A stretch of DNA of 64,000 bases, from NCBI RefSeq assembly GCF_023516495.1, contig NZ_JAMGBC010000001.1, positions 620,001-684,000 on the forward strand, written 5' to 3'. The number at the start of each line of letters is the position of its first letter. The stretch's first letter is position 1. The position numbers and the translations under genes are program-made. Positions 2,444-55,441 of the stretch are shown one piece after another. Below the pieces are notes generated by a model. The model searched no databases. It saw only the letters and a program-made list of their open reading frames with translations, and was not told the origin of the DNA. Source of the stretch: Sphingomonas anseongensis. GTDB lineage: Bacteria > Pseudomonadota > Alphaproteobacteria > Sphingomonadales > Sphingomonadaceae.

Positions 2444-4342
2444 ATGAGCGATGTATTCGTCTCGTATAAGGCAGAAGACCGGCGGCGGGTTAAGCCGCTG
2501 GTCGATGCGCTCGAGGCCGAGGGCTATTCGGTCTGGTGGGACGAGCAGATCGGCGGCGGCGCGCAATGGCGCCACATGATCGAATCCGAGCTCAACGCAG
2601 CCAAATGCGTCATCGTTGTCTGGAGCAAGCGCTCGGTCGGGCCGGAAGGCACGTTCGTGCAGGACGAAGCGACGCGGGCGCAAGAGCGCCGCGTCTATGT
2701 GCCGGTGCTTCTCGATAACGTCCATCTACCGCTGGGCTTTGGGGAGATGCAGGCGCTTCCACTGAGTGGATGGAAGGGCGGCCGTTCCGAGCCGCGTTTC
2801 CAAGCCATCCTTTCTGCGGTCGCCAGGCTCGCCGGCGAGTCGAGCGGTGAGGCGATCTCCGCTTCTGGCGGCACTGGGCTGAGCCGGCGAAACGTCATTG
2901 CCGGAGGCAGCATTGCCGCAGTCGCCGTCGCTGCCGTTGGCGGCTACGCGCTCTTCAAGCCGACGTCCGCTTCCGCTGCTGGAAGCATCGCCGTCCTGCC
3001 GTTCGCCAATTTGAGCGGCGATCCCTCCCAGGCCTATTTTTCAGATGGAATTGCCGAAGAACTTCGGAGCGCCCTGGCCCGCCTTGCCGGCCTGAAAGTC
3101 GTAGGCCGAACCTCCTCGGAAGCGGTTCGCAACGACGATGCGGAGACCGCTGCGAAAAAGCTCGGCGTCGGCAACATCCTCACCGGAAGCGTCCGGCAGT
3201 CCCCCTCGACCATTCGCGTCAGCGCGCAGCTCATCGACGGCCAGAGCGGGATCGAACGCTGGTCGCAAAACTACGATCGCAAACCGGGCGATGCGATCGT
3301 CATCCAGACGGATATAGCCGAGAATGTGGCCCGGGCGCTCAGCATCACGCTCGGCGGGTTCGAGCATGAAGCGATCACCGCCGGAGGCACAAAGAACCCT
3401 GAGGCCCAAAAGCTTCTGCTTCAGGCGCTCGAAGCGACCCGGCGCGGCGATAAGGATGCGTTGCAGGAGGGCATTTCCCTCGCCGACGCGGCGATCAAGC
3501 TCGATCCGAAATATGCCGATGCTTATGCGAACAAGGCGCTGTTCACCAATTGGTATGCAAGCACCTATTCCGATGGTCTTCCGGAACTTGTGCGGCTTCG
3601 TTCAGATGCGATGGAAACCGCCAAGGTCGCGCTTCGGCTCGCTCCGAAGCTCGCCAACGCTCACCATGCCTTGGCGGAGATTTACCGCGTCGTCTTGGAC
3701 GTTGGGCCCGCAATCCGCGAGTATAAGATTGCGCTTCAGCTCGCGCCCGCCAGCCCTGCCGTGTTGTCGGATTATGCCTTCATCCTCGGAGCGCTCGGAA
3801 ACAGCACGGAGTCGATCAGGCTTTCCGATCAGGCGATCAACCTCGATCCGTTGAGCGTCAACGCCTACTTCGTTCATTTTTCCGCCCTGCTCGCCGCCCA
3901 CCGGTTCAACGAAGCGGTCGAGTTTTCACAGAAGCTCGAACGGACGCGACCGTATCTGTTCAACTGGCCCGAGATCGTCGCGACTGCGCTCGTTGCCCAA
4001 GGCAAGCTCGCCGAGGCCCAGGCCTATCTGAAGCGAGCACCAACGGACAATTACAACCGTCTCGTCAACGAAGCGGTGATCCTCGCCCAGACAGGGAAGA
4101 GCAAGGAGGTGCCGGCGGTGATCGAGAAGATGCGCCAATCCTATGGCGACGCCGCAAGCTACCAATATGCCGAGGTCTATGCGCAGCTCGGCGATAAGGA
4201 TCGAGCCTTCGCGGCGCTCGATCGGGCATGGGTAATCCGCGATTCGGGATTGCTCCGAGTGGAGCGCGACACGTACATCGACCCGCTTCGGAGCGATCCC
4301 CGCTATGCGGCACTGCTCCGGAAGATGAACTTCCCCGCCTGA
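2444..4342 (+). CDS. TIR domain / TolB-like / TPR membrane-anchored protein
   Basis: A 632-residue multidomain protein. Residues about 3-110 form a TIR fold (FVSYKAEDR start, VWWDEQI, IESELNAAKCVIVVWS, then a conserved-position acidic stretch QDEATRA that could supply the NADase glutamate). A single hydrophobic segment follows at about 150-168. Residues about 175-300 match the TolB-N/FlgO-like domain often fused to adenylate cyclases (SIAVLPFANLSGDPSQAYFSDG). The C-terminal half is TPR-like helical repeats. The architecture suggests a cytosolic TIR domain tethered to the membrane, with a cell-envelope or cytosolic sensor region. Whether the TIR domain hydrolyses NAD+ or is only a scaffold cannot be told. 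No defence genes surround it. Confidence 0.85.
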   Translation: MSDVFVSYKAEDRRRVKPLVDALEAEGYSVWWDEQIGGGAQWRHMIESELNAAKCVIVVWSKRSVGPEGTFVQDEATRAQERRVYVPVLLDNVHLPLGFGEMQALPLSGWKGGRSEPRFQAILSAVARLAGESSGEAISASGGTGLSRRNVIAGGSIAAVAVAAVGGYALFKPTSASAAGSIAVLPFANLSGDPSQAYFSDGIAEELRSALARLAGLKVVGRTSSEAVRNDDAETAAKKLGVGNILTGSVRQSPSTIRVSAQLIDGQSGIERWSQNYDRKPGDAIVIQTDIAENVARALSITLGGFEHEAITAGGTKNPEAQKLLLQALEATRRGDKDALQEGISLADAAIKLDPKYADAYANKALFTNWYASTYSDGLPELVRLRSDAMETAKVALRLAPKLANAHHALAEIYRVVLDVGPAIREYKIALQLAPASPAVLSDYAFILGALGNSTESIRLSDQAINLDPLSVNAYFVHFSALLAAHRFNEAVEFSQKLERTRPYLFNWPEIVATALVAQGKLAEAQAYLKRAPTDNYNRLVNEAVILAQTGKSKEVPAVIEKMRQSYGDAASYQYAEVYAQLGDKDRAFAALDRAWVIRDSGLLRVERDTYIDPLRSDPRYAALLRKMNFPA

Positions 4343-4380
4343 CGCTGGCGCTTGCAGCCGCGGTCTGCCAAGGCGCGGCA

Positions 4381-4551
4381 ATGGACGGACAAAACAAGCG
4401 CGCTGGCGGCTGCTTCATCATGGCGGCAGTCCTGCTGGGGTTCCTCGCCGGCCTCGTAACCGGCAACGCGCTTCGCGGCGTCTGGATCGGCCTTGGCGCG
4501 GGAATTGCCGTGGCGGTCGCCGTATGGCTGCTCGACCGGCGCCGAAGCTAG
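4381..4551 (+). CDS. Small two-helix membrane protein
   Basis: A 56-residue protein from the ATG at 4381, 38 bases after the TIR gene and in the same direction. It is almost entirely hydrophobic after a short polar start (MDGQNKRAGG), with two predicted membrane helices divided around residues 27-31 (GNALRG), and ends in LLDRRRS. An in-frame longer reading starts inside the TIR gene, but the ATG here matches the hydrophobic profile better. Function unknown. Confidence 0.5.
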   Translation: MDGQNKRAGGCFIMAAVLLGFLAGLVTGNALRGVWIGLGAGIAVAVAVWLLDRRRS

Positions 4552-4555
4552 AGTC

Positions 4556-5203
4556 TCAACCCAGCTTGCGCCCGGCCCAGATCACCCGGCCGATGCAGTG
4601 GATCGCGTCGATGTCGCAATCGGGCCAGTCCGGGTAGGCAGGATTGTCCGACTGGACGGTTACCCGTCGTCCGGTGGGATGGATCGCGAGCCTTTTCACG
4701 ACCAGGACATCGTCCGCGCGAAGGACGTAGATCCCGTCCCGGAGCCGCTCCATACAGTCGCCGAGGTCGACCAGGATGTCGTCGCCGGCATTCAGCGTCG
4801 GCGCCATCGAATCCCCCTCGACACGAATGATCGACAGCTTCGATGAAGCCGACGGAGTGAGCGTCCGGAGCCAGCGCTCGTCGAACGCGAAATAGGGTCC
4901 TCCCCTTTCCTCCCCGGCAAATGCGCCCGGCCCGGCCGAGGCATGCACGAGCGTCCGCTTCACGGGAATGAGCCCTGGCGGAGGCTTGTCCGCATCGGGC
5001 GGGCCGCCGAGCAAGGATTCGGGAACGCCGAAGAAGCGAGCCAGCTTCTTTCGCTCTTCCTCCTTCAGCTTCCTCGGAACACCACGGCGTACGAATTGCT
5101 GGATGTAGGCCGAGTTGCGGCCGAGCATTCGCGACAATCCGGCGAAATCTTCGCCGCGCTCGGCGCAGAGGCGCTCCAACACGGCACGGGGATTGGACTC
5201 CAT
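4556..5203 (-). CDS. LexA-like S24 family transcriptional regulator
   Basis: A 215-residue protein from ATG 5203. An in-frame ATG at 5215 would add four residues. Residues about 18-45 form a helix-turn-helix (FAGLSRMLGRNSAYIQQFV). The C-terminal half is a peptidase S24 domain with the nucleophile in VEGDSM (Ser132) and the general base in VLVVKRL (Lys170). An Ala-Gly pair at 90-91 could be the autocleavage site. Proteins of this type repress stress or phage-type genes and are relieved by RecA-stimulated self-cleavage, though many chromosomal relatives use S24 only for dimerisation. A perfect inverted repeat lies just upstream of its start, consistent with autoregulation. Its target genes are unknown. 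Confidence 0.85.
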   Translation of the reverse strand: MESNPRAVLERLCAERGEDFAGLSRMLGRNSAYIQQFVRRGVPRKLKEEERKKLARFFGVPESLLGGPPDADKPPPGLIPVKRTLVHASAGPGAFAGEERGGPYFAFDERWLRTLTPSASSKLSIIRVEGDSMAPTLNAGDDILVDLGDCMERLRDGIYVLRADDVLVVKRLAIHPTGRRVTVQSDNPAYPDWPDCDIDAIHCIGRVIWAGRKLG

Positions 5204-5220
5204 GGTTGGTCTCATAAGTG

Positions 5221-5234
5221 TAGGCATGTGCCTA
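5221..5234. promoter_or_regulatory. Palindromic candidate operator of the S24 regulator
   Basis: TAGGCA-TG-TGCCTA is a perfect 6-bp inverted repeat, 18 bases upstream of the regulator's ATG and 66 bases upstream of the divergent small gene at 5300. Location and symmetry fit autorepression by the dimeric S24 protein. It does not match the alphaproteobacterial LexA box GTTC-N7-GTTC. Confidence 0.45.
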
Positions 5235-5299
5235 GACAAGTAGGAATTGCGTTGGGAATGGATGGGCAGCCGAGTCGTCAGACGAAGTGGGGAATAAGC

Positions 5300-5473
5300 G
5301 TGTATCTGCTAAGAGAAGTCGAGAAATTTCTACGCCACCAGGAGGTCGCACCAACCCGATTCGGCCGGGATGCTGTCGGCGATCCGCGGTTTGTTTTCGA
5401 TCTGCGCAAGGGGAGAGAGCCGCGCCCGCGAACTATACAGCGGGTTCTCGCCTATCTGGAGACGCCGCAATGA
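5300..5473 (+). CDS. 57-aa minimal HTH-like small protein
   Basis: It starts with GTG at 5300 behind GGGGAA and encodes VYLLREVEKFLRHQEV, then a block with the pattern FGR-A-DPR-V-DL-GREP-T-V-L that resembles the helix-turn-helix half of XRE-type regulators. The stop overlaps the next gene's start (ATGA). The reading frame is open far upstream, but coding character begins only here. It faces the S24 regulator across a 96-base gap. A DNA-binding role is inferred from pattern only. Confidence 0.6.
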   Translation: MYLLREVEKFLRHQEVAPTRFGRDAVGDPRFVFDLRKGREPRPRTIQRVLAYLETPQ

Positions 5474-5802
5474 TGCGGCTGGCCATGTCCCCCGCCGCCG
5501 CGGGGTTGCTGCGTTCCCTGCTTCGGCGTGGCGGCGTAAACCGCGATAGGATTTTGCTTACCGAGTTCCGTTCAACGGATTGGCAATCATTAACCTTTAC
5601 AGGCGAGCAACACAAAATTCGCCTTCGTGTCCCAGCGCCGGATGCGGGGGCGATAGTGGCAAGGCTGGTTAACGGACTTGAAGATTCCGAGTTCTCCATC
5701 CCCGGCCATGTGGTTGCCGACATCGCGCTTGCAGGCGAGCCCGATCAACAACCGGACGGCTCGCTGGTGCTCACCATCGAGGCGTTGACGGTCGAGGACT
5801 AG
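5470..5802 (+). CDS. Hypothetical protein coupled to HTH-like small gene
   Basis: A 110-residue protein whose ATG at 5470 overlaps the preceding stop (ATGA), indicating co-translation. It has no signal peptide or membrane segment. Residues about 25-50 (DRILLTEFRSTDWQSLTFTGE) start a beta-rich domain that ends in an acidic tail (LTIEALTVED). I recognise no characterised family. The coupling to a putative DNA-binding small protein suggests a shared regulatory unit, but that is inference. Confidence 0.65.
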   Translation: MMRLAMSPAAAGLLRSLLRRGGVNRDRILLTEFRSTDWQSLTFTGEQHKIRLRVPAPDAGAIVARLVNGLEDSEFSIPGHVVADIALAGEPDQQPDGSLVLTIEALTVED

Positions 5803-5803
5803 T

Positions 5804-6109
5804 TTAAGCGAGCGACTGGCGAAGCTCGGCGAGCGCAAGTTTCAGTTCGTCGGCCGGACTGAGGCGCTCGCCAGCGCCGGCGCCACTTGCCTTGTTGCGC
5901 AGGTGGCGCTCGATCGAATCGCGCAATTCGCCGGCGGTGGGCATGGGCCGCGGCATCGCAACGACGTTGGTGGCGCTCACCGCCATGGGCTTGTCGAGCA
6001 GCAATTCGGCAAGCTCCTCCGCCGCCTCGCTCTCGAACTCGAGCGGGCGGAGCTCGAACTCGGGAAGCTCGAAGCATCGGCGTGCGAGGAGTCGGGCGAG
6101 AAGGGCCAT
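5804..6109 (-). CDS. Hypothetical acidic protein
   Basis: A 101-residue protein convergent with the preceding gene (stops 1 base apart). It is rich in Glu, Leu and Ala: the N-terminal part repeats FELPEFELRPLEFESEAAEELAELL, and the C-terminal part is a predicted helix (DELKLALAELRQSLA). The composition suggests a soluble helical protein. Other frames across this stretch are also open, so support is moderate. Function unknown. Confidence 0.45.
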   Translation of the reverse strand: MALLARLLARRCFELPEFELRPLEFESEAAEELAELLLDKPMAVSATNVVAMPRPMPTAGELRDSIERHLRNKASGAGAGERLSPADELKLALAELRQSLA

Positions 6110-6144
6110 TCACGCTTCCTACCCTGCCAAAGGTTGCCGGCTGG

Positions 6145-6693
6145 TTAGGCAGACGCCGAGGATTCGATCAGCTCAACGAGCGCTTCCGTAAAGGGCTTCA
6201 CGTCGTCGGGGTTGCGGCTGGTCAGGATGTTCCCATCGATCGTCGCCGGTTCGTCCACGACCTTCGCCCCGGCATTGGAGAGATCTGTGCGGATCGAAGG
6301 CCATCCCGTAACTTTTCTGCCCCGCACGAGATCGGCTTCCACGAGCAGCCAAGGGCCATGGCAGATCGCGGCAACCGGCTTGCCCGCCTGCGCAAACTCC
6401 CTGATCAGCGCAATCGCCGGCTTGTTCATTCGCAGGGCATCCGGGTTTCGGACCCCGCCGGGCAGGACCAACGCGTCGAAATCGGCCGAGCGAGCGTCCT
6501 CGATCCTCACGTCGGGCCGGATCGTCCTGCCCGGATCGTCGTGCACCGTCGCCTGGATCGGCCTCAAGTCCGGCGAGGCGAGCATTACCTGCGCGCCCAT
6601 CGCCATCAGCATTTCGCGCGGGCCGAACAGCTCCGACTCCTCGAACCCGTCGGTGGCGACGATGAGCACCCTTGAATCGCGGATTTTCGGCAC
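6145..6693 (-). CDS. DJ-1/PfpI family protein
   Basis: A 182-residue class I glutamine-amidotransferase-like fold. It carries the family's catalytic elements: an acidic pair in GFEESEL (Glu18/Glu19) and the nucleophile elbow AICHGPW (Cys111, His112). Length and motifs match the YhbO/PfpI branch, whose members act as stress-protective hydrolases and have been reported as deglycases for glycated proteins or nucleotides, a claim that is disputed. It is transcribed divergently from topoisomerase IB with a 61-base gap. The exact substrate cannot be told. Confidence 0.9.
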   Translation of the reverse strand: MPKIRDSRVLIVATDGFEESELFGPREMLMAMGAQVMLASPDLRPIQATVHDDPGRTIRPDVRIEDARSADFDALVLPGGVRNPDALRMNKPAIALIREFAQAGKPVAAICHGPWLLVEADLVRGRKVTGWPSIRTDLSNAGAKVVDEPATIDGNILTSRNPDDVKPFTEALVELIESSASA

Positions 6694-6754
6694 TTGGTGA
6701 CTCCGTTCGGCGAACAGCAGGAACCGCCCTGCCCCGCCGGTCGCTTAGGCGATC

Positions 6755-7777
6755 ATGCCGGAACAGAAGCAAAGGTTGCGCCACAGCAGCGATAGCGAGC
6801 CAGGGTACTCGCGCAAGCGGATGGGCCGCTACTGGGCCTATTTCGACGAGGCGGGTGAACGCGTGACCGACCGCGACACGATCGACCGGCTCAATTCGCT
6901 GGGCCTTCCCCCGGCCTATACCGACGCCTGGTTCTGCAAGGATTCCAACGGGCATCTGCAGGCGACCGGGATCGATGCGCGGGGCCGCAAGCAATATCGC
7001 TACCATCCTGACTTCCGCGCCCGGGCCGACAAGAAGAAATTCTCCGGCCTCCTCCAGTTCGGCGAGGCGCTACCGAAGATCAGGACGCGGGTGGAGGAGG
7101 ATCTTGGCAGCACGGGAATGAGCCGGGAGAAGGTGCTCGCTGCCGTCGTCCGGCTCCTCGACACCGAATATCTGCGCATTGGGAACGAACGCTACGCACA
7201 GGACAACAAGAGCTTTGGTGCGACGACGCTTCTCTGCCGCCATGTGAACACCGACGGCGGCAAGGTGAAGATGCGCTTCAACGGCAAGCACGGGAAGCTC
7301 CACGAGCTGGTCATCACCGATCGGCGGCTTGGCCGGATCGTCCGCCAGTGCAAGGAGCTGCCCGGCCAGGCGCTGTTCCAGTACATCAACGGCGAAGGGG
7401 TGCCGCACCCGATCACGTCCGATGACGTCAACGCCTACATTCGCGAAGCGAGCGGAGGCGAGTTCACAGCCAAGCATTTCCGCACCTGGTGGGCGAGCGT
7501 CATCGCCTACGGCGAGATTCTGGAAGCGGACGAAGCGAGCCGGGTCAGCGTCCAGACCGTCGTCGAGCCCGTGGCGGAAGCGCTTGGGAACACGCCGGCG
7601 ATCAGCCGCAAGTCTTATGTCCACCCGGCGCTGATCGAGGCGATAAAGGACAATCCGCGCGACCCGCTTGGCGGCATCGAGCCGCAGCGCAAGCGCAAGT
7701 GGTTGTCGTCTCCGGAAGTCGGCTTCCTCAAATTCCTGGAGCGAAAGCAAGGCACGCAGCGCAAGCGCGCTGCTTGA
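6755..7777 (+). CDS. DNA topoisomerase IB (poxvirus-type)
   Basis: A 340-residue bacterial TopIB. The N-terminal domain contains the GRYWAYFDEAGERVTD region. The catalytic domain has the tyrosine-recombinase-like residues expected: RIGNERY (about 141-147), HFRTWWAS (241-248) and the nucleophile in SYVHP (Tyr288). These enzymes relax supercoils through a 3'-phosphotyrosyl intermediate and occur sporadically in soil bacteria, including many sphingomonads. It starts a same-strand run with mscS, maoC and thiolase genes. No role beyond general topology or stress can be claimed. Confidence 0.93.
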   Translation: MPEQKQRLRHSSDSEPGYSRKRMGRYWAYFDEAGERVTDRDTIDRLNSLGLPPAYTDAWFCKDSNGHLQATGIDARGRKQYRYHPDFRARADKKKFSGLLQFGEALPKIRTRVEEDLGSTGMSREKVLAAVVRLLDTEYLRIGNERYAQDNKSFGATTLLCRHVNTDGGKVKMRFNGKHGKLHELVITDRRLGRIVRQCKELPGQALFQYINGEGVPHPITSDDVNAYIREASGGEFTAKHFRTWWASVIAYGEILEADEASRVSVQTVVEPVAEALGNTPAISRKSYVHPALIEAIKDNPRDPLGGIEPQRKRKWLSSPEVGFLKFLERKQGTQRKRAA

Positions 7778-46418: not shown

Positions 46419-47024
46419 ATGACCAAGGGCATCCTGGGAGATCGTGAAAAGGCGCTCGAGGATAATTACTTCCGGCAAGAGGAAGCGAAACTTGTCGAGA
46501 AGCTGCGCCAGAACGCCAGGCTCGACGAGATCGCGGCCGCGCTGCGCGACAAATTGCAGGTCGATGACCCCGAGCTGCTGATGCGTACGCGGCAACTCGG
46601 AGTGACCGTTGAGACCGCACCTGCCTTCTTCCTGGCCCCACTCGTCCAGGTCGCCTGGGCAGGCGGTTCGGTCACGAGTTCCGAACGTGAAACTGTGCTT
46701 GGCCTTGCGCGCGGTCGTGAGATCGACCCCGCCTCGCCTGCCTATGCGCAGCTTGTCAGCTGGCTCGAAAGCAAGCCTTCGGATGAGCTTTTCGACACCG
46801 CACTGGAAGTGTTGAGGAGCGGCTTTTCAGTGCTTCCGCCCGACGAGCGAAGGGCGCGCGTAACCACGCTGGTCGACGCCTGCCATAAGGTGGCCGAAGC
46901 AGCAGGAAGCCACGTCGCTACGCTCCTTGGAATGCGCCAAGACGTTACGCGGGCGGAAGAGTCGGTCGTCGAGACAATCAACAACAAGCTGCGGATCGGG
47001 ACAGGAGAATCGGCTTCGGACTAA
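46419..47024 (+). CDS. TerB-like protein with ATPase-zeta-like N-terminus
   Basis: From ATG 46419 the protein has 201 residues. Residues 1-40 (GILGDREKALEDNYFRQEEAKLVEKLRQNARLDEI) resemble the start of the alphaproteobacterial F1-ATPase inhibitor zeta (DREKAFE...KFAHDEE). Residues about 60-185 form an all-helical TerB-like domain (PLVQVAWAGGSVTSSERETVLGLARGREI). TerB domains occur in membrane-associated tellurite and stress modules. The combination is seen directly; function is not known. Convergent with pflA (overlapping stops). Confidence 0.7.
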   Translation: MTKGILGDREKALEDNYFRQEEAKLVEKLRQNARLDEIAAALRDKLQVDDPELLMRTRQLGVTVETAPAFFLAPLVQVAWAGGSVTSSERETVLGLARGREIDPASPAYAQLVSWLESKPSDELFDTALEVLRSGFSVLPPDERRARVTTLVDACHKVAEAAGSHVATLLGMRQDVTRAEESVVETINNKLRIGTGESASD

Positions 47025-47860
47025 TCTGCAGCTAGCCCCGCGGCCCGGAAAATCCGCACTGCTTCCGCAATCTGCTCATCCGTGGGCGGCTTGGTATCGG
47101 CGAGGGAGTATTCGAGGCCCAGCCGGTCCCATTTATACTGGCCAAGCTGGTGGAACGGCAGGATTTCCGCACGCTGGACGACGCCAAGGGAGGCTCCAAA
47201 CTTCGCGACTGCCGCCATCTCTTCCGGAATGTCGGTCAGTCCCGGAACCAGGACGTAGCGAAGCCACATTGGGCGTTTGAGCCGCGCCAGGCGATCGCAG
47301 AAGGCGAGGATATCGTCGTTATGCATCCCGGTGACCCGCCGGTGCTGGTCCCGGTCGATCGCCTTCATGTCGAGAATGACGAGGTCGATGGTCTTGAGCT
47401 CGTCGTCCGAAAGCCGCTCGCCGAAATAGCCATTGGTCTCGATGGCGGTGTGGACACCCATGTCCTGTACCGCAGCAAACAGCCGCACCGCAAAGCGATC
47501 CTGCATCAGCGGCTCGCCGCCCGACAGTGTGAACCCGCCACGGATCGCCCTCAAACCGTTGGCGTATTTGCGCACCTCCTCGATCGCCTGCTCCAGGGTC
47601 ACGGGGATTCCGTTGGTCAGGGTCCAGGTGTCCGGGTTGTGGCAATACTTGCAGCGAAACATGCAAGCCGTGGTCCAGGCGACGAGACGAATTCCAGGCC
47701 CGTCGACCGCCGAACCGGTGGTGAAGCTGTGCAGGAATCCCATGTCACCGGTCTTGAGCGCCGAGCGGACATCCGTGTCTGGCAGGCCTTCGCCAAGGCT
47801 GACGCGCATCTCAAAAGGCGAGCTGGCCTCCAGCGGAGTGGGCGGCGGATTTGATTCCAC
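47021..47860 (-). CDS. pflA: Pyruvate formate-lyase activating enzyme
   Basis: A 279-residue radical-SAM enzyme starting at GTG 47860. The 4Fe-4S motif is CMFRCKYC (Cys66, Cys70, Cys73), followed by GGFTLSGGEPLMQ (SAM GGE motif) and ETNGYF. It abstracts hydrogen from Gly728 of PflB to generate the glycyl radical. It follows pflB by 6 bases and ends the sdaA-MFS-pflB-pflA unit. The extended N-terminus (40 residues before MGFLHSFTTGS) is longer than E. coli PflA, so a downstream start (ATG 47743) is possible. Confidence 0.93.
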   Translation of the reverse strand: MESNPPPTPLEASSPFEMRVSLGEGLPDTDVRSALKTGDMGFLHSFTTGSAVDGPGIRLVAWTTACMFRCKYCHNPDTWTLTNGIPVTLEQAIEEVRKYANGLRAIRGGFTLSGGEPLMQDRFAVRLFAAVQDMGVHTAIETNGYFGERLSDDELKTIDLVILDMKAIDRDQHRRVTGMHNDDILAFCDRLARLKRPMWLRYVLVPGLTDIPEEMAAVAKFGASLGVVQRAEILPFHQLGQYKWDRLGLEYSLADTKPPTDEQIAEAVRIFRAAGLAAD

Positions 47861-47866
47861 GCCGAC

Positions 47867-50125
47867 TCACTCCCCGTGGAATGTGCGGTTGATCACGTCC
47901 ATCTGCTGCTCGCGGGTCAGGCGGACGAAGTTGACGGCATAGCCGGAGACCCGGATCGTCAGGGTCGGATATTTCTCCGGGTGGTCCATCGCGTCGACCA
48001 GGGTGTCGCGATTGAGCACATTCACGTTCATGTGAAAGCCAGTGACTGAGAAGAAGCGGTCCAGGATCGAAGTGAGGTTTGTGATCCGGTCCTTTTCGGT
48101 ACGGCCGAGCCCGGTCGGCACCAGACTCGTCGTAAGCGAAATTCCGTCCTGGGCGTCGCGATACGGGATTTTCGCCACGGAGGCGGCCGAAGCCTGGATT
48201 CCGTGGCTATCGCGCCCGTGCATGGGGTTTGCGCCGGGGGCAAACGGCTCGCCCTTGCGCCTTCCGTCAGGCGTGTTCCCGGTGGCCTTGCCGTAGACGA
48301 CGTTGGACGTGATCGTCAGCACCGACTGCGTGTGGAGGGCGTTGCGGTACGTCTCGTGCCCGCGAAGCTTCCCCATGAACGTGCTGACCAGCCAGGCGGC
48401 CATATAATCGACGCGGTTGTCGTTGTTCCCGAACTTGGGAAAGTCGCCCTCGACTTCATAGTCGACGACGAGACCGCTGCTGTCCCGGATGACTTTGACC
48501 TTCGCATATTTGATCGCGGACAGGCTGTCGGCGACGACGGACATGCCCGCGATCCCGAACGCCATCGTCCGGATCGGCGAGTAATCGTGGAGCGCCATTT
48601 CGACCCGCTCGTAGGCATATTTGTCGTGCATGTAGTGGATGACGTTCATGGCGCTGACGTAGATCTCCGCCAGCCAGCCCATCATTTTCTCGAACCGGTC
48701 GAGGACGTCGTCGAAATCCAGATAATCGCCTTCAACCGGCGCGGTCGGCGGTCCGACTTGATCCCCGCTGATCTCGTCCCGCCCTCCGTTGATTGCGTAG
48801 AGCAGGCATTTTGCGAGGTTCGCGCGGGCGCCGAAGAACTGCATTTGCTTGCCCATCAGCATCGGCGAAACGCAGCAGGCGATGGCGCCGTCGTCGCCCC
48901 AGGCCATCCGCATGATCTCGTCGCTCTCGAACTGGATCGAGCTCGTGTCGATCGCGACCTTGGCCGTGAACCGGCGGAAGTTCTCGGGAAGCTGCGAGGA
49001 ATACCAGATCGTCAGGTTAGGCTCGGGCGCAGGGCCGAGATTGTAGAGCGTCTGGAGGAAGCGGAAGCTCGTCTTCGTGACGAGGGGGCGGCCGTCATCC
49101 CCCATTCCCGCGATGGACTCCGTGACCCAGGTGGGATCTCCGGCGAATAGCTCGTCATATTCGGGCGTTCGAAGGAAGCGGATGATCCGCAGCTTCATCA
49201 CGAAATCGTCGATGATCTCCTGGGCTTCGCTTTCGGTGATCAGGCGCGAAGCGAGATCCCGTTCGAAGAAGATGTCGAGGAATGTCGACACTCGTCCGAG
49301 CGACATCGCCGCTCCGTTCTGCTCCTTCACCCCGGCGAGATAGCCGAAATAGAGCCACTGAACGGCTTCCTTCGCGCTTGTGGCCGGCTTCGAAATGTCA
49401 AAGTCGTATTTGGCCGCCATTTCCTTCAGTTCGCCAAGTGCGCGAATCTGTTCGGAAAGCTCCTCGCGGTCGCGGATCGTCTCGTCCGTCGACCACACCT
49501 GGTCGAGCTGGCTTTTCTCGGTCTTTTTCTCCTCGATCAGGCGGTCGACGCCATAGAGGGCAACGCGGCGATAATCGCCGATGATCCGCCCCCGCCCGTA
49601 GGCATCGGGGAGACCGGTCAGTATGTGTGATTTGCGGCAGCGTCGGACGTCCGCGGTGTAGGCATCGAAGACGCCCGCGTTGTGGGTTTTCCTGTATTTG
49701 GTGAAAATCTCCACGACCTGGGGATCGGGCGTGTAGCCGAACGCCTCGAGCGCGTTGGTGACCATCCTCAGGCCGCCATTGGGCATGATCGCGCGCTTCA
49801 GGGGGGCGTCCGTCTGGAGCCCGACGATCACCTCGTTGTCGCGGTCGATATAGCCGGCGTCGTGAGCCGTGATCGAGCTTGGGATTTGCGAGACGTCGAG
49901 AACGCCCTTCTTGCGCTCCTCGACGAAAAGGTCGGTCAATTTCTTCCAGATAGCTCGGGTGCGGGGAGTCGCAGTCGTGAGGAAGGAGCCGTCGCCGAAA
50001 TAAGGCGTGAAGTTCGTCTGGATGAAATTGCGGACATCGATGTCCTTCGTCCACAGTCCGCTTTGGAAGGATGGGCGTTCCTGGGTCCCGCGCTTGTGTT
50101 CTGGCTCCATGATCAGGGTCGGCAT
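47867..50125 (-). CDS. pflB: Formate C-acetyltransferase (pyruvate formate-lyase)
   Basis: A 752-residue protein starting at ATG 50125 behind GGAGGA (an ATG 12 bases upstream lies right after the MFS stop and is less likely). Catalytic cysteines are Cys417-Cys418 in AIACCVSPM, and the radical glycine is Gly728 in RVSGYAVNF. Full length and all motifs match canonical PflB (759 aa in E. coli), not glycerol or choline glycyl-radical lyases. It converts pyruvate plus CoA to acetyl-CoA plus formate and is irreversibly cleaved by O2 in the active state. Unusual for a sphingomonad-like genome. Confidence 0.96.
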
Positions 50126-50137
50126 CGAGTCCTCCAT

Positions 50138-51418
50138 TCATTCGGCGGGGAGTGCGGAAGCTGCCTTCGCTGTCCGTGCGCGCGGCCCGGTTTCGCGAAG
50201 CAGCAGGGTCAGGGCGATTGCGAGGACCACGCCATAGAGAAGCGGCTGGAACGCCTCCTGATAATGACCGAGCTGCCGGTCCCCGCCTGCGCTCGCCCCA
50301 ATCAGCGCGCCGGCGAAAATCGGGCCGAGGACGGCCGTCATCGAGAAGTTGAGAAAGTTGACCACTCCGGTCGCCGTGCCGCTGTGCTCCGGCCGGTTGG
50401 CTTCCTTGATGATCGTGTACGGGATCATCGCCGCACCGGAAGCGATCCCGGCGACAAGGGCGAGGCTGAACGGCGGGAATATGCCAACCGGCGCGAACAG
50501 GATCAGCGCCAGCGTTCCAAGAAGGACTAGCCCGGCGCCGACGATCACGGGCTTGCGGCGACCGATCCGGTCGGTGATCCAACCCAGGAGCGGGCAACCG
50601 ATGATCCACCCGAAGGGGACGGCGGCAGATCGCAGGACCGCGACCGAATAAGGCAGATCATGCGCTTCCTGCAGGTACCGAACGCCCCAGACCATGTCGA
50701 AGATGGTCGTCGGTATGAAGAACAGCCCGGCGATCAGGCCGCACAGCAGCGACTGGGGATTCGCGAACACCGTCCCCATCGCCGACAGCGCCGGGCCGAG
50801 ACCCCTTCGCTGGCGGGACGCACCTTCCTGGACCTCTCGTTTCGGGATGAGCAGAAGCAGCAGGAGTGCGATGGGGATGCCGACGACGCCGGCGATGAAC
50901 CAGAACTTGTCCCACGCTATTCCGGAAGCGATCAGCGGGCCGACGACGAACTGGCCGGCGGAGCCGCCTGCCATTCCGAACATCTGCGTGACGCCGACAA
51001 GCGTCGCGGCGCTCGACACGGGCATGAAGGCCGTTACCAGGTAAACGGCCCCGATCAGCGCGAACACGCCGCCGGCACCCTGCATGAACCTGCCAATGCT
51101 TCCGAGCGTCGGATCGCCGGTTGAAAACAGCATTGCGCCAATCGCCACGCTGGCGGCCCCGAGGGGAACGACCTTGCGGGGCCCGAGCTGGTCCATCGCG
51201 ACGCCCGCAACCAGGCTGAAGGGTGCGTAGCCGTAATAGAAAAGGCCGACGAGAGAGGCGATGCCGACGGCGCTCATCCCGAAGGCGGCCGTGAGCTCCG
51301 GAACCATGACGGCGGGCGCCGAGCGCATCGAATATTGGTAGAAATAGAAGACTGCGGTCAGGAGCCAGGCGGCGGTGATTGCCGCCGTCGCTCCCGACCG
51401 CGTGACCGGCCCGGACAT
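50138..51418 (-). CDS. MFS transporter in the fermentation operon
   Basis: A 426-residue major-facilitator protein with about 12 hydrophobic helices, including FYFYQYSMRSAPAVMVPELTAAFG in helix 1, a motif-A-like VAGVAMDQLGPRKVVPLGA and, in the second half, LLGWITDRIGRRKPVI. It lies 5 bases after sdaA and 13 bases before the pflB start. The position suggests transport of serine, pyruvate, formate or acetate. It is not a FocA-type formate channel. Substrate not determinable from sequence. Confidence 0.88.
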   Translation of the reverse strand: MSGPVTRSGATAAITAAWLLTAVFYFYQYSMRSAPAVMVPELTAAFGMSAVGIASLVGLFYYGYAPFSLVAGVAMDQLGPRKVVPLGAASVAIGAMLFSTGDPTLGSIGRFMQGAGGVFALIGAVYLVTAFMPVSSAATLVGVTQMFGMAGGSAGQFVVGPLIASGIAWDKFWFIAGVVGIPIALLLLLLIPKREVQEGASRQRRGLGPALSAMGTVFANPQSLLCGLIAGLFFIPTTIFDMVWGVRYLQEAHDLPYSVAVLRSAAVPFGWIIGCPLLGWITDRIGRRKPVIVGAGLVLLGTLALILFAPVGIFPPFSLALVAGIASGAAMIPYTIIKEANRPEHSGTATGVVNFLNFSMTAVLGPIFAGALIGASAGGDRQLGHYQEAFQPLLYGVVLAIALTLLLRETGPRARTAKAASALPAE

Positions 51419-51423
51419 CGGAT

Positions 51424-53016
51424 TCAGCAGAGCGTCAGGGACACGGCGAGGCCGCCTTCCGACGTCTCCTTATACTTCGAATTCATCTCCTTGGCGGTGA
51501 TGGCCAAGGCCTGCACGGTCGAATCGAAATCCACGCGCCGGTTGGCGGGAATCTCGTTCTTGGCGATCAGATAGCCGGTCCAGGATTTGACCGCCCCGAA
51601 TGCGCAACGCTCGATGCACGGTATCTGCACGTACCCGGCGACCGGATCGCAGGTCATTCCCAGATGGTGCTCAAGCGCGCCTTCCGCGGCGTTGGCGATG
51701 ACCTGCGGCGGCGCATCCAGCGCTTGTCCGATCATCGCCGCTCCCATTGCCGAGGCGACTCCGATTTCCGCCTGGCAGCCACCCTCCGCAGCTGCCAGGG
51801 TCGCGTGGTGCTTGCACAGATAGCCGACGACCGATGCGGCCAGCAGCCCCTCGCGAAGCTTCTGGTCAGGGACTTTTGCGCCGGCTTGATCGAGTGAATA
51901 GAGAACCGCAGGCATGACCCCTGCGGATCCGCCGGTGGGCGCGGTTATCACCAAGTGGCCGCGAGCATTTTCTTCGGACCCTGCAAGTGCGGCGGCCGAC
52001 ACCATTCCAATGGCTTTGCGGGCAGGTATCGCCTCGGCCTGAGCGCTTCTGAAGACGTCCCCGGCCTTCGTCTTGAGCTTGATTGGCCCGGGCAAAGTGG
52101 ACGTCGGGGCGGCGAGACCCGTCTTCACTGTTGCACGCATCGCGCCAATAATCTTGTCCAGAAAGGCGTTGATCTCGGCTTCGCTGCGCCCGGAAATCGA
52201 CGTCTCGTTCGCCATTGCGAGCTGGGCGATCGAGATATTGTCACGCTTGGTATAGTCGATGACCTGAGCCATCGTTTCGTAGGGATATTTCGGAGCGTGC
52301 TTCTCGGGCGGTGCATAACCCTTCCACTCGATGAATCCGCCTCCGACCGAATAATATTCCTGTTCCAGCAAGACCTTGTCGCCGGCCATCAACTTGACCG
52401 TCATCGTGTTGGCGTGCGGGAAATCGCCCTTGGTCGCGTCATAGATGATGTCCTTGAGCGACGCGTTGATGGTCTTGGTTCCGAGCTTGACCGGGTAAAC
52501 CTTGTCCGGCTCGGCCTGCATCTTGTCGAGAACGGCAACCGGGTCGATCGTCGCGGGCTCATGACCGATCAGCCCCGCAAGGGCCGCCCGTTCCGTGCCA
52601 TGGCCTTTGCCGGTCGCGCTTAGGCTGCCGTAGAGATGGACTTTGAGTGCCGTCGCCTGGTCGAGCTCCGCCTGCGGCAGTTTGATCGCCCGCTGGTAAA
52701 AGTCGTAGGTGATCCGCATCGGGCCGATCGTGTGCGACGAGGACGGTCCGGGACCGACCTTGTAGAATTCGTCGACCAGGGTCATCACCGGCCCCTTCGA
52801 CTGCTTCACCACATTCAGGTTCGGGTCGAGCTTGACCGGCTGCGCATTGGCCGGAGTCTGCGCGAACAGCGGATTGATCGTGCCGCCAACCGCGATGATG
52901 GCCGTGGCCATGGCGCTGCGCACCATGAACGCCCGGCGGTCAGAGCCGGTCGGGGGTTCGGAATAGTCGAGCTCCGGAATCACCGGCGCGGTGGGATTGC
53001 GAGTCTCGCTGTCCAT
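51424..53016 (-). CDS. sdaA: Fe-S L-serine dehydratase with Tat-like N-terminal extension
   Basis: A 530-residue single-chain L-serine ammonia-lyase from ATG 53016 (GGGAGAG upstream). The beta domain begins DEFYKVGPGPSSSHTIGPM. Three cysteine cluster ligands, Cys414 (EGGCQAE), Cys456 (GMTCDPVAG) and Cys467 (IPCIERC), plus the C-terminal Cys530, match the spacing of Legionella serine dehydratase (343/385/396/458). Before the domain lie 75 extra residues containing SDRRAFM (Arg27-Arg28), a hydrophobic stretch (AMATAIIAVGG) and a cleavage-like LFAQT, as in Tat signals. Reaction: L-serine to pyruvate plus NH3. Export is inferred, not shown. Confidence 0.93.
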   Translation of the reverse strand: MDSETRNPTAPVIPELDYSEPPTGSDRRAFMVRSAMATAIIAVGGTINPLFAQTPANAQPVKLDPNLNVVKQSKGPVMTLVDEFYKVGPGPSSSHTIGPMRITYDFYQRAIKLPQAELDQATALKVHLYGSLSATGKGHGTERAALAGLIGHEPATIDPVAVLDKMQAEPDKVYPVKLGTKTINASLKDIIYDATKGDFPHANTMTVKLMAGDKVLLEQEYYSVGGGFIEWKGYAPPEKHAPKYPYETMAQVIDYTKRDNISIAQLAMANETSISGRSEAEINAFLDKIIGAMRATVKTGLAAPTSTLPGPIKLKTKAGDVFRSAQAEAIPARKAIGMVSAAALAGSEENARGHLVITAPTGGSAGVMPAVLYSLDQAGAKVPDQKLREGLLAASVVGYLCKHHATLAAAEGGCQAEIGVASAMGAAMIGQALDAPPQVIANAAEGALEHHLGMTCDPVAGYVQIPCIERCAFGAVKSWTGYLIAKNEIPANRRVDFDSTVQALAITAKEMNSKYKETSEGGLAVSLTLC

Positions 53017-53284
53017 CTTACTCTCCCGTGCACGGAGAAGAGACTTCGGGCAGTGCTCCCCACTGCTCCGACGCTCGCTCTCGTCGATGTTTGAAGGATA
53101 GGCGCAGGCTTGCGGCGGCCTATCGGGAGTTACCCCCAAGACGCGTCGATCCAATTGCTGAGGACTTTTTGGTCAAGGCTCTCCCACCGGCCGGATTTCG
53201 GCCGCGCGTCAGGGCATATCCGGATTAACGGCTACCAACTGCCGCCTATGCTTCGGGCTTTCCGATCCAAGCGGGAGGTCGCCG
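53017..53284. promoter_or_regulatory. Divergent control region sdaA / pta
   Basis: The 268-base gap between divergent sdaA and pta. It contains hairpin GCAGTG-CTCCC-CACTGC (53050-53066, in the sdaA leader), CGGCCG-GATTT-CGGCCG (53188-53204) and palindrome ATCCGGAT (53218-53225). A TTGACC hexamer at 53177..53172 on the minus strand is a possible sdaA -35 with only a weak -10. I found no FNR/Anr TTGAT-N4-ATCAA site. Confidence 0.45.
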
Positions 53285-54256
53285 ATGTCGGTGCTCGAGG
53301 TCGAGCGTCCAATCGCTCGCAACACTCATGACAGGTTTCATAGCCTTATTGCGAAGGCCGCCAAGCACGAGCCGATAAAGGTGGCCGTTGCCCACCCTTG
53401 CGACCAGGTGTCGCTGGAAAGTGCGGCCGCGGCGGCCAAGATGAAGCTGATCCAGCCGATCCTGGTCGGGCCGGAGGAGCGGATTCGCGCCGTTGCCTCG
53501 GACCACAAGATCGACATCAGCGGTTTCGAGATCGTCGATGCGAAGTTCAGCGAGGATTCGGCGAGCAAGGCCGTCGAGCTCGTTCGCGAGGGCCGCGCCG
53601 AAGCGCTGATGAAAGGCAGCCTTCATACCGACGAGCTGATGGGCGCTGTGGTCAAGCGCGACACCGGACTGCGCACGGCGAGGCGGATCAGCCATTGTTT
53701 CGTGATGGATGTGCCGGGCCATGACCAGCCGCTGATCATCACAGACGCCGCGGTGAACATTGCGCCCGACCTCAAGGCCAAGGTCGATATCACCCAGAAT
53801 GCGATCGACCTGGCCCACGCGCTGGGCTCGAAGGAGGTGCGGGTCGCGATCCTGAGCGCGATGGAAAGCGTCAATCCGGACGTTCCGTCGACGCTGGAGG
53901 CGGCGGCGCTGTGCAAGATGGCCGATCGCGGCCAGATCACCGGTGCACTGCTGGATGGCCCGCTGGCGCTGGACAATGCGATCAGCACTGAGGCCGCGGC
54001 AATCAAGAAGATTGCGTCGCCGGTGGCGGGCCGGGCCAATGTCCTCGTGGTCCCGGACCTCGAAGCCGGCAACATGCTGGCAAAAAGCCTGTCCTTTCTC
54101 GCCGACGCCGATTCCGCCGGGATCGTCCTTGGCGCGAAGGTGCCGATCATCCTGACCAGCCGCGCCGACAGCGAAACGGCTCGCCTCGCATCATGCGCAG
54201 TCGCCCAGCTGGTCGCAGCCTCGCGCCGGGCTTCCGCGTCGGCAGCCATCCAGTAG
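53285..54256 (+). CDS. pta: Phosphate acetyl/butyryltransferase, stand-alone domain
   Basis: A 323-residue single-domain phosphotransacylase (EALMKGSLHTDELMGAVV, ISHCFVMDVPGHDQPLIITDAAVNIAP, ESVNPDVPSTLEAAALCKMADRG, DGPLALDNAIS). Motifs are those of the Pta/Ptb catalytic domain. The N-terminal MaoC-like or DRTGG extensions of larger relatives are absent. It makes acetyl-phosphate from acetyl-CoA. A butyryl- or acyl-specific enzyme is possible. It forms a two-gene unit with ackA and is divergent from sdaA. SD GGGAGG precedes the ATG. Confidence 0.9.
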   Translation: MSVLEVERPIARNTHDRFHSLIAKAAKHEPIKVAVAHPCDQVSLESAAAAAKMKLIQPILVGPEERIRAVASDHKIDISGFEIVDAKFSEDSASKAVELVREGRAEALMKGSLHTDELMGAVVKRDTGLRTARRISHCFVMDVPGHDQPLIITDAAVNIAPDLKAKVDITQNAIDLAHALGSKEVRVAILSAMESVNPDVPSTLEAAALCKMADRGQITGALLDGPLALDNAISTEAAAIKKIASPVAGRANVLVVPDLEAGNMLAKSLSFLADADSAGIVLGAKVPIILTSRADSETARLASCAVAQLVAASRRASASAAIQ

Positions 54257-54265
54257 GTCGCCGAC

Positions 54266-55441
54266 GTGGCCGAATGCATCGCAGTCGTGAATGCCGGTTC
54301 GTCGAGCATCAAGTTCGCGCTGTTCGACGACGGACCCGACCTTCCGCAGCTGTTCGCCGGGCAGCTTGAACAGATTGGCGTCGCTCCTCGGTTGACCGTC
54401 ACCGATCCGGCGGGCGAACGGGTTCTGGAAAACGAGTGGGATCCGAAGGAAATCGATCACCGCGCCGGCGCGTCAATCATTCTCAAGACGGCGATCGGGC
54501 TGCTCGGCGGAAAGCCGATCGCGGGCGTCGGTCACAGAGTCGTACATGGCGGGACGAGTTTCACAGCACCGGTAATCGTGACCAACGAGGTAATTGCGTC
54601 ACTGAAAGGTCTTTGCCCCCTCGCCCCACTGCACCAGCCGCACAATCTGGTCGCCATGGAAGCAATCCGAACCGCAGCGCCGCACATCGAGCAGGTCGCC
54701 TGTTTCGACACGGCTTTCCATCAAGCGCAGCCCCCCATTGCGCAAGCCTTTGCGTTGCCGCGGGAACTCAGCGACTCCGGAGTGAAGAGATACGGCTTCC
54801 ACGGCCTGTCGTATGAGTTCGTAAGCGGCCGGCTTCGCGAGCTCGACCCGGACATGGCCGACAAGCGGATCATCGTCGCGCATCTCGGTAACGGCGCCAG
54901 TCTTTGCGCCATCCATCACGGGCGTAGCGTTGCGAGCACCATGGGCTTCACCGCGCTCGACGGACTGGTCATGGGAACGCGTTGCGGGGCGATCGATCCC
55001 GGCGTGCTCATTTACCTGATGGACGAGCGCGGCATGGACGCCCGAAAGCTCGAAGCTTTGCTGTACAAGCAATCGGGGCTTCTCGGCGTTTCCGGCATTT
55101 CATCGGACATGCGCACCCTTCGCGCTTCGGAAGAGCCGGAGGCGCGCGAGGCGATCGACCTCTTCGTCTATCGGATAACCCGGGAGATCGGATCGCTCGC
55201 GGCCGCTCTTGGCGGCCTTGACGGGCTGGTGTTCACCGGCGGCATCGGTCAGCGCGACGTGAAAACGCGAAGCGAGGTCGTTGGCGGGTGTACCTGGCTC
55301 GGCGCGGCGCTGGACGAGGCGTCAAACGGCAAAGGGGAAATGCGGATCGAGGCCTCGGGGTCCCGCCTGCCGATCTGGGTGCTCCCGACGGACGAAGAGC
55401 GAGTCATCGCCCGAAGCACAGCGGCGCTCGTTGCCGCTTGA
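54266..55441 (+). CDS. ackA: Acetate kinase
   Basis: A 391-residue acetate/propionate kinase of the ASKHA fold, starting at GTG 54266. Signature 1 is VVNAGSSSIKFALF and signature 2 is VGHRVVHGGTSF. Also present are SYEFVSGRLRELDPD, HLGNGASLCAIHHGRSVASTMGFTALDGLVMGTRCGAIDPG and FTGGIGQRDVKTRSEV. With Pta it yields acetate and one ATP per acetyl-CoA. It lies 9 bases after pta. Confidence 0.95.
   Translation: MAECIAVVNAGSSSIKFALFDDGPDLPQLFAGQLEQIGVAPRLTVTDPAGERVLENEWDPKEIDHRAGASIILKTAIGLLGGKPIAGVGHRVVHGGTSFTAPVIVTNEVIASLKGLCPLAPLHQPHNLVAMEAIRTAAPHIEQVACFDTAFHQAQPPIAQAFALPRELSDSGVKRYGFHGLSYEFVSGRLRELDPDMADKRIIVAHLGNGASLCAIHHGRSVASTMGFTALDGLVMGTRCGAIDPGVLIYLMDERGMDARKLEALLYKQSGLLGVSGISSDMRTLRASEEPEAREAIDLFVYRITREIGSLAAALGGLDGLVFTGGIGQRDVKTRSEVVGGCTWLGAALDEASNGKGEMRIEASGSRLPIWVLPTDEERVIARSTAALVAA

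Follow-up and report, generated by a model that had tools for sequence, protein, structure and literature searches.

Escherichia coli is established to ferment serine through a formate-lyase (in parts of PMC1884159 and PMC9040844). The tdc operon, as presented in those parts, associates a serine dehydratase, a transporter, a ketoacid formate-lyase and a kinase, and converts serine or threonine anaerobically into acetate or propionate plus formate and ATP (PMC1884159, PMC9040844), the threonine branch being treated in a part of PMC5459495. We analysed a locus of similar gene content in Sphingomonas anseongensis, located in a 64,000 nt stretch of DNA (hereafter the window; contig NZ_JAMGBC010000001.1, G000:C1:620001-684000) of a 2.23 Mb genome assembled in two contigs. 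This locus, called here the module, is composed of a minus-strand unit with the genes sdaA (Fe-S L-serine ammonia-lyase), a major facilitator superfamily (MFS) transporter gene, pflB (pyruvate formate-lyase, PFL) and pflA (its activase), and of the divergent plus-strand genes pta and ackA. SdaA carries an N-terminal twin-arginine translocation (Tat) signal, and we consider it reasonably probable that the module performs a redox-neutral fermentation of serine whose first step takes place outside the inner membrane.

Amino-acid fermentation is usually taken to begin with uptake and cytoplasmic deamination. In E. coli, the dehydratase and kinase of the tdc operon are assigned to TdcG and TdcD, and TdcG is not known to have an export signal. 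The window locus differs from tdc by the Tat signal of its dehydratase, by the possession of its own pflA and by the adjoining pta. Its transporter belongs to the MFS (to the AspT/YidE type at other loci) and not to the type of the serine/threonine permease TdcC, whose role is described in a part of PMC1884159. No tdcB-, tdcA- or tdcF-like gene was found among the neighbours scanned at the window locus. The gene logic is that of the tdc operon; the differences lie in the export signal, in the families of the transporters and in the dedicated activase. The E. coli cyuPA operon is similar in that a dedicated transporter accompanies an oxygen-sensitive Fe-S enzyme yielding pyruvate for fermentation (PMC9040844), but this enzyme is a cysteine desulfidase and, in the part of that paper dealing with it, the operon is named as importer and desulfidase alone. 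The yield indicated there is about one ATP per cysteine minus the import cost, which serine would equal, and the E. coli pathways are described as dependent on oxygen-sensitive enzymes (PMC9040844). The fold of CyuA is distantly related to that of the window SdaA.

We propose the following model. The Tat system would export a folded 4Fe-4S L-serine ammonia-lyase, which would act on periplasmic L-serine and release pyruvate and ammonium. The pyruvate would be imported by a dedicated transporter (the MFS protein in the window), possibly against formate or acetate. PflB, once activated by PflA, would cleave this pyruvate in the cytoplasm to acetyl-CoA and formate; Pta and AckA would then produce acetate and one ATP per serine. 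The route from serine to pyruvate, to acetyl-CoA and formate, and then to acetate is redox neutral; neither NAD(H) nor an electron acceptor would be required, so that energy could be obtained when oxygen is short. We put forward more tentatively a two-compartment version of this fermentation, in which the exported SdaA would leave ammonium outside, the MFS protein or an AspT/YidE-type exchanger would swap pyruvate for formate or acetate, the cost of serine uptake would be avoided, and recruitment would have involved two lineages of PFL as well as two transporter families unrelated to each other. If the model is true, the first catabolic step moves outside the membrane, the energy balance of serine use changes, and presumed aerobes (Sphingomonas, Caulobacter, Brevundimonas, Microvirga) could draw ATP from serine in oxygen-poor soil or biofilm. 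The preliminary description of this DNA had proposed the chemistry SdaA, PflAB, Pta-AckA; the gene set does fit a serine-to-acetate route, but the SdaA step is probably not cytoplasmic, given the conserved Tat signal. In the literature searched, which left out most subscription papers so that a report may exist, no description of an exported or periplasmic serine dehydratase was found. The same search yielded no description of PFL in Sphingomonas or Microvirga, or of such a module in the named bearer species, and in a part of PMC10746277 Sphingomonas is named merely as a relative of Zymomonas.

The Tat Signal and the SdaA Clade

The sdaA gene (51424–53016, minus strand) codes for a protein of 530 amino acids which scored 381.9 bits against a cut-off of 345.1 for TIGR00720 (profile search, as for the other scores given below for the module). 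The probable start is the ATG at position 53016 rather than that of the longer TTG frame in the list of open reading frames; a methionine occupies the same alignment column in nine of 12 relatives, the three g100 genomes giving no firm start. The Tat signal region (residues ~1–57, positions 52846–53016, minus strand) contains the twin-arginine motif SDRRAFMVRSA and, after it, a hydrophobic stretch; S/T-RRxFLK is given as the Tat consensus in the abstract of PMC3383694. Possible cleavage sites are LFA-Q or ANA-Q. The window genome possesses TatC (228.2 bits). The Tat signal is carried by all 13 aligned SdaA of the module, from the window and from 12 relatives, in one of which the downstream frame is broken; the alignment also contained two canonical SdaA from the same genus, both devoid of the signal.

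A wider scan of genome contigs was performed with query peptides taken from the enzyme domain of SdaA, none from the signal, and the best 80 of 85 relatives, ranked by their match to the whole protein, were retained. The RRxF motif was present at 76 of these 80 loci, that is at 76 of the 79 with a readable N-terminus, locus L136 being cut there. A lipobox was visible at one fixed distance after the RR at 15 of the 76 Tat loci, and the exported SdaA would probably be lipid-anchored in some phyla. Among 31 canonical alphaproteobacterial SdaA, both strands being read, none had RRxF in an open frame before the enzyme domain. We hold it to be very probable that SdaA is exported via Tat, and because of this conserved signal the first step of the pathway is probably not cytoplasmic. 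At nine loci of Bacteroidota and Acidobacteriota (L125–L129, L131, L132, L134 and L135), a cysteine-rich stretch (e.g., CGGCSSxxCxPC) was observed before the Tat motif of SdaA.

The Tat-SdaA formed a separate group. Searched in 385 sampled alphaproteobacterial genomes, the Tat-SdaA profile gave more than 940 bits in two, G000 included, with a match reaching into the signal; the next-best score was 391.6 bits and the match began past the signal. In a tree of 115 SdaA rows, 30 canonical rows stood on one side with an SH-aLRT support of 100, and the Tat label required two losses on the non-canonical side. This tree and the PFL tree discussed below were quick LG+G4 trees with SH-aLRT support only, the latter midpoint-rooted, and rows with internal stops or with fewer than 380 (SdaA) or 600 (PflB) residues were excluded. 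L147 (of the 31 canonical sequences) and L118 and L141 (of the 77 Tat-side loci) were left out in the SdaA tree, and L136 was entered as Tat although its N-terminus was missing. At L100, on a contig titled Flavobacteriales, a Tat-SdaA fell inside a mostly alphaproteobacterial clade, by transfer or mis-binning. In the window genome the single match to the SdaA models used is the Tat-SdaA. Two other genomes of the family, G274 and G405, hold in addition a canonical SdaA, so the Tat type is not a mere stand-in for the canonical one.

The fold search with the window SdaA placed at the top the L-serine dehydratase 4RQO of Legionella (38% identity), a canonical SdaA, and the cysteine desulfidase CyuA appeared as a distant match after the 4RQO group. 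The window protein shares with 4RQO the enzyme domain, the SSSHT motif, three cysteines (414, 456 and 467) which we take to be the cluster ligands, and the C-terminal Cys530, presumably in the role of the C-terminal cysteine; each of the four was aligned with a cysteine of 4RQO. At 101 positions the same residue was present in at least 90% of both the Tat and the canonical classes. The window SdaA differs from the canonical type by the clade, the Tat signal and nine class-specific positions, one of them Asn471 replaced by Cys beside a cluster cysteine. Two further sequences of the two-subunit type keep Asn at position 471. Another class-specific position, 362, also differs (Ala) in the annotated two-subunit serine ammonia-lyase L192 and in an unannotated relative, L193.

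Transporters and Pyruvate Formate-Lyase at the Related Loci

The MFS gene of the window (50138–51418, minus strand; 129.2 bits, PF07690 cut-off 33.4) is followed by pflB (47867–50137, minus strand; 756 amino acids, 1144.8 bits, TIGR01255 cut-off 994.2) and pflA (47021–47860, minus strand), which codes for the radical-SAM activase. In the locus DNA examined, a PFL was found at 44 of the 80 loci. Transporters were counted when the match covered at least 100 residues with at least 55% (MFS) or 45% (exchanger) identity; an MFS stub at L119 and an exchanger-like match of 30% at L138 were below these thresholds and hence uncounted. The PFLs were assigned to lineage A or B according to how identical they were to the window PflB, and the tree agreed for the rows it contained. 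The MFS accompanied lineage A at 21 of the 44 PFL loci and an AspT/YidE-type exchanger (PF06826) accompanied lineage B at 22; the remaining locus, L102, ends inside pflB. If the Tat signal works, pyruvate would be produced outside the inner membrane, within reach of the cytoplasmic PFL only after transport. A dedicated transporter at the PFL loci is what this predicts, and one from either of two unrelated families was present at 43 of the 44, L102 being the exception. No PFL locus had both transporters at the thresholds used. Upstream of the Tat-sdaA and MFS genes of L076, an MFS locus, two tandem stretches distantly similar to AspT/YidE (positions 4200–7384, 23–25% identity) were visible.

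Ten of the 21 MFS loci were alphaproteobacterial (sphingomonads and Caulobacterales) and 11 came from Gammaproteobacteria, other Pseudomonadota, Acidobacteriota and one planctomycete metagenome-assembled genome (MAG). With the same linkage in Caulobacterales, Gammaproteobacteria, Acidobacteriota and the planctomycete MAG, and a variant in Microvirga, the module can no longer be seen, as it was initially, as particular to sphingomonads. The order sdaA-MFS-pta-ackA-pflB-pflA was found at nine of the 11 non-alphaproteobacterial loci; sdaA came last at L117, and L115 was cut. The 22 lineage-B loci corresponded to 19 Microvirga records and to one each of a Rhodospirillales genome, an unclassified proteobacterial MAG and a Thermoanaerobaculales MAG. 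There, the exchanger gene adjoins pflA and takes the place of the MFS gene (e.g., L094:14862-16430).

Lineage A (30 rows) and lineage B (22 rows) each had a support of 100 in the PFL tree, where lineage B joined the PFL of Azospirillum, Kovacikia and the g46 genomes at a support of 91. This tree also contained L126, whose glycyl-radical enzyme is very distant. The grouping of lineage B, in a tree with few outgroups (nine rows, from three g46 genomes and six plasmid records), suggests but does not settle that Tat-SdaA became associated with PFL twice, separately.

AspT is an aspartate:alanine exchanger and OxlT an oxalate:formate exchanger. We propose that the precursor/product exchange logic of these systems could apply here. 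The Microvirga variant has a protein of the AspT/YidE family, but this protein lies below the cut-off of the AspT model TIGR03802 (193.5 versus 546.95 bits), and the window MFS has no match by sequence in the PDB at E 0.001. The MFS proteins are 60–80% identical across phyla. The window protein may be a pyruvate importer or a pyruvate/formate (acetate) exchanger, pyruvate as its substrate being a guess. A FocA-type formate channel was not found in 12 of the 13 sphingomonads with the module, G000 included, and this absence may leave a little room for pyruvate/formate or pyruvate/acetate exchange.

At seven more Tat loci an MFS gene was present and no PFL was seen in the locus DNA examined, five of the seven being on contigs shorter than 12 kb. 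At L091 an exchanger gene overlapped sdaA, again with no PFL in that DNA. For the 36 loci devoid of PFL, 27 genomes were searched: TIGR01255 was over its cut-off elsewhere in seven and partial or broken in one (G870). Some genomes kept parts of the module elsewhere, as an MFS gene together with pta-ackA and pflBA on another stretch (G862 and G864), an MFS gene near pflBA (G884), an MFS gene with pta-ackA (G866), or the latter plus a broken or partial pflB (G870).

Alternative Explanations

An unlikely alternative is a cytoplasmic, tdc-like fermentation in which SdaA stays inside, the MFS protein imports serine or exports acids, and no export signal resides in the N-terminal extension. The enzymes acting downstream of SdaA do belong to cytoplasmic families, the tdc operon encodes the same pathway, and three of the 80 loci (L112, L122 and L133) have no Tat motif, so that the enzyme domain can occur without a signal. 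The Tat anatomy at 76 of 79 readable loci, the fixed-place lipobox at 15 of them and the lack of a Tat motif in 31 of 31 canonical SdaA argue on the contrary for a true signal. The three Tat-less loci also lacked transporter and PFL in the locus DNA examined; they represent just two losses on the tree, too few to test. Another explanation, which we hold to be quite improbable, accepts export and supposes that the enzyme acts on cysteine, threonine or D-serine, or detoxifies, the fermentation genes using the keto acid secondarily. The class-specific residues, among them the Cys adjoining a cluster ligand, the distant fold match to CyuA and the many Tat-SdaA loci without PFL speak in favour of it. 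It has to be set against the score of SdaA above an L-serine ammonia-lyase cut-off, the 38% identity to 4RQO, an L-serine dehydratase of known structure, the difference (Ala) also present at position 362 in L192 and L193, and the linkage of Tat-SdaA to PFL in two PFL lineages. It is very improbable that the module was acquired recently or lies idle, as an island without a selected role in the window lineage: its distribution is patchy (eight of 71 genus genomes, one with a broken sdaA, and 10 of 397 sampled family genomes), but for all six genes compared with S. hankyongi the non-synonymous divergence was far below the synonymous one (dN 0.07–0.22, dS 1.3–1.8), and the gene order is identical in the window and 12 relatives.

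Several observations weigh against a periplasmic SdaA feeding a PFL-based fermentation. At 24 of the 76 Tat loci, neither MFS, exchanger nor PFL was counted in the locus DNA examined (one of them, L119, shows the beginning of an MFS gene where its contig ends, and several are on short contigs), and the same was true for the three Tat-less loci and the cut one. TIGR01255 was over its cut-off nowhere in 19 of the 27 searched genomes of PFL-less loci. Because so many Tat loci and genomes show no PFL or partner, SdaA must sometimes serve another purpose. The nine class-specific positions with Cys471 count here too, and the AlphaFold model of SdaA was moderate (mean pLDDT 71.9). A 4Fe-4S dehydratase in the periplasm of an oxygen-exposed cell would be at risk. 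No solved structure in the PDB was matched by sequence with the window MFS profile at E 0.001, and the fold matches were generic MFS proteins, OxlT being one of many. FocA was also missing in the four g46 genomes that possess a PFL but lack the module. Concerning oxygen control, no clear FNR box (TTGATN4ATCAA) was visible in the 268 bp divergent intergenic region between sdaA and pta (53017–53284), and FNR-like boxes with at least 8 of 10 matches occurred in 14 of 81 upstream regions, the window absent from these, versus eight expected from single-base shuffles. FNR control was rejected as a candidate, the scan giving a weak overall excess and nothing of note in the window.

Organization, Distribution and Control of the Module

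The six genes were found at the coordinates of the preliminary description, each above a curated family cut-off, and the minus-strand unit diverging from pta-ackA was confirmed. PflA scored 265.7 bits (TIGR02493 cut-off 231.75). The pta gene (53285–54256, plus strand) codes for a short-type phosphate acetyltransferase, at 517.3 bits against a cut-off of 413 for the subfamily NF008852 and far under that of the classic model TIGR00651 (83.9 versus 311.2 bits). The ackA gene (54266–55441, plus strand) codes for an acetate/propionate kinase (361.2 bits, TIGR00016 cut-off 293.4). The gaps of 5, 12 and 6 bases given earlier for the minus strand are correct with the second ATG of pflB (position 50125) and become 5, 0 and 6 bases with the first (50137). 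PflB possesses Cys421-Cys422 (ACCVS, 420–424) and the glycine-radical loop RVSGYA (729–734, Gly732), and PflA the CxxxCxxC motif at 66–73. With these motifs and those of SdaA intact, and dN low relative to dS in all six genes, the genes look intact.

Of 397 genomes sampled from the family, 15 gave a PFL match (TIGR01255), which exceeded the cut-off in 13, was split between contigs in G275 and in the last one was weak and corresponded to another glycyl-radical enzyme. The MFS profile (E 1e-50) gave 14 matches, 10 above 700 bits and four at or below 372 bits. The SdaA profile (E 1e-20) gave 199, 10 of them above 920 bits and, among the matches listed, the others below 380. The identical 10 genomes (G000, G014, G256, G332, G447, G206, G258, G363, G274 and G405) hold Tat-SdaA, MFS and module-type PFL. 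Being present in 10 of 397 sampled genomes, the compact serine-to-acetate unit is rare in the family and not a general trait of aerobic relatives. PFL in itself is nothing new there: four g46 genomes (1.9–2.1 Mb) possess one without the module. At the three g46 loci examined neither sdaA nor the MFS gene stood beside pflBA, and in the three genomes entering the tree the PFL belonged to a different lineage from that of the module. The g46 genomes with PFL have a distant MFS homologue (L194–L196, 36–38% identical); it was rejected as an informative link, being far from pfl in the two examined genomes where one contig holds both, and gave nothing firm.

Within the genus, 12 of 71 genomes had an SdaA match: eight of the Tat type, three canonical and one in pieces (G003). 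The order sdaA-MFS-pflB-pflA was identical in the window and in all 12 gene-bearing relatives examined, and this set of 13 includes all eight Tat-type genomes of the genus. In one of the eight, G465, the Tat-type sdaA is divided between two overlapping frames (L059:8553-10147), either a decaying gene or a sequencing error, and the remaining module genes match over almost their full length. Among 72,556 plasmid records, none matched the window SdaA with an identity of at least 60%. Other glycyl-radical enzymes, ~24–26% identical to the window PflB, were observed in the same genus and order in G030 (L025) and G051 (L026). G051 has two such enzymes in a row, and in G045 (L005–L006) two matches lie in one open frame of 1684 amino acids.

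The single control region which had been supposed to be shared by the two divergent units is not conserved: pta-ackA is directly divergent from sdaA in three of the 13 module genomes (the window, G456 and G465), and no FNR-type box stands out in it. In nine of the 12 relatives pta-ackA lies within the 18 kb examined. In some relatives other genes intervene between pta and sdaA (named by eye as DUF3141-like, FabI, polyphosphate kinase 2-like and SulP permease); they were discarded as candidates, not being conserved with the module. The 268 bp region gave no sigma-70-type promoter match, nothing useful in a promoter and terminator scan and no Rfam match. Elsewhere in the genome, L180 (G000:C1:416235-416462) codes for a regulator of the Crp/Fnr type which has a CxxCx7C stretch at its N-terminus and may be an oxygen sensor, and it is possible that this protein controls the module.

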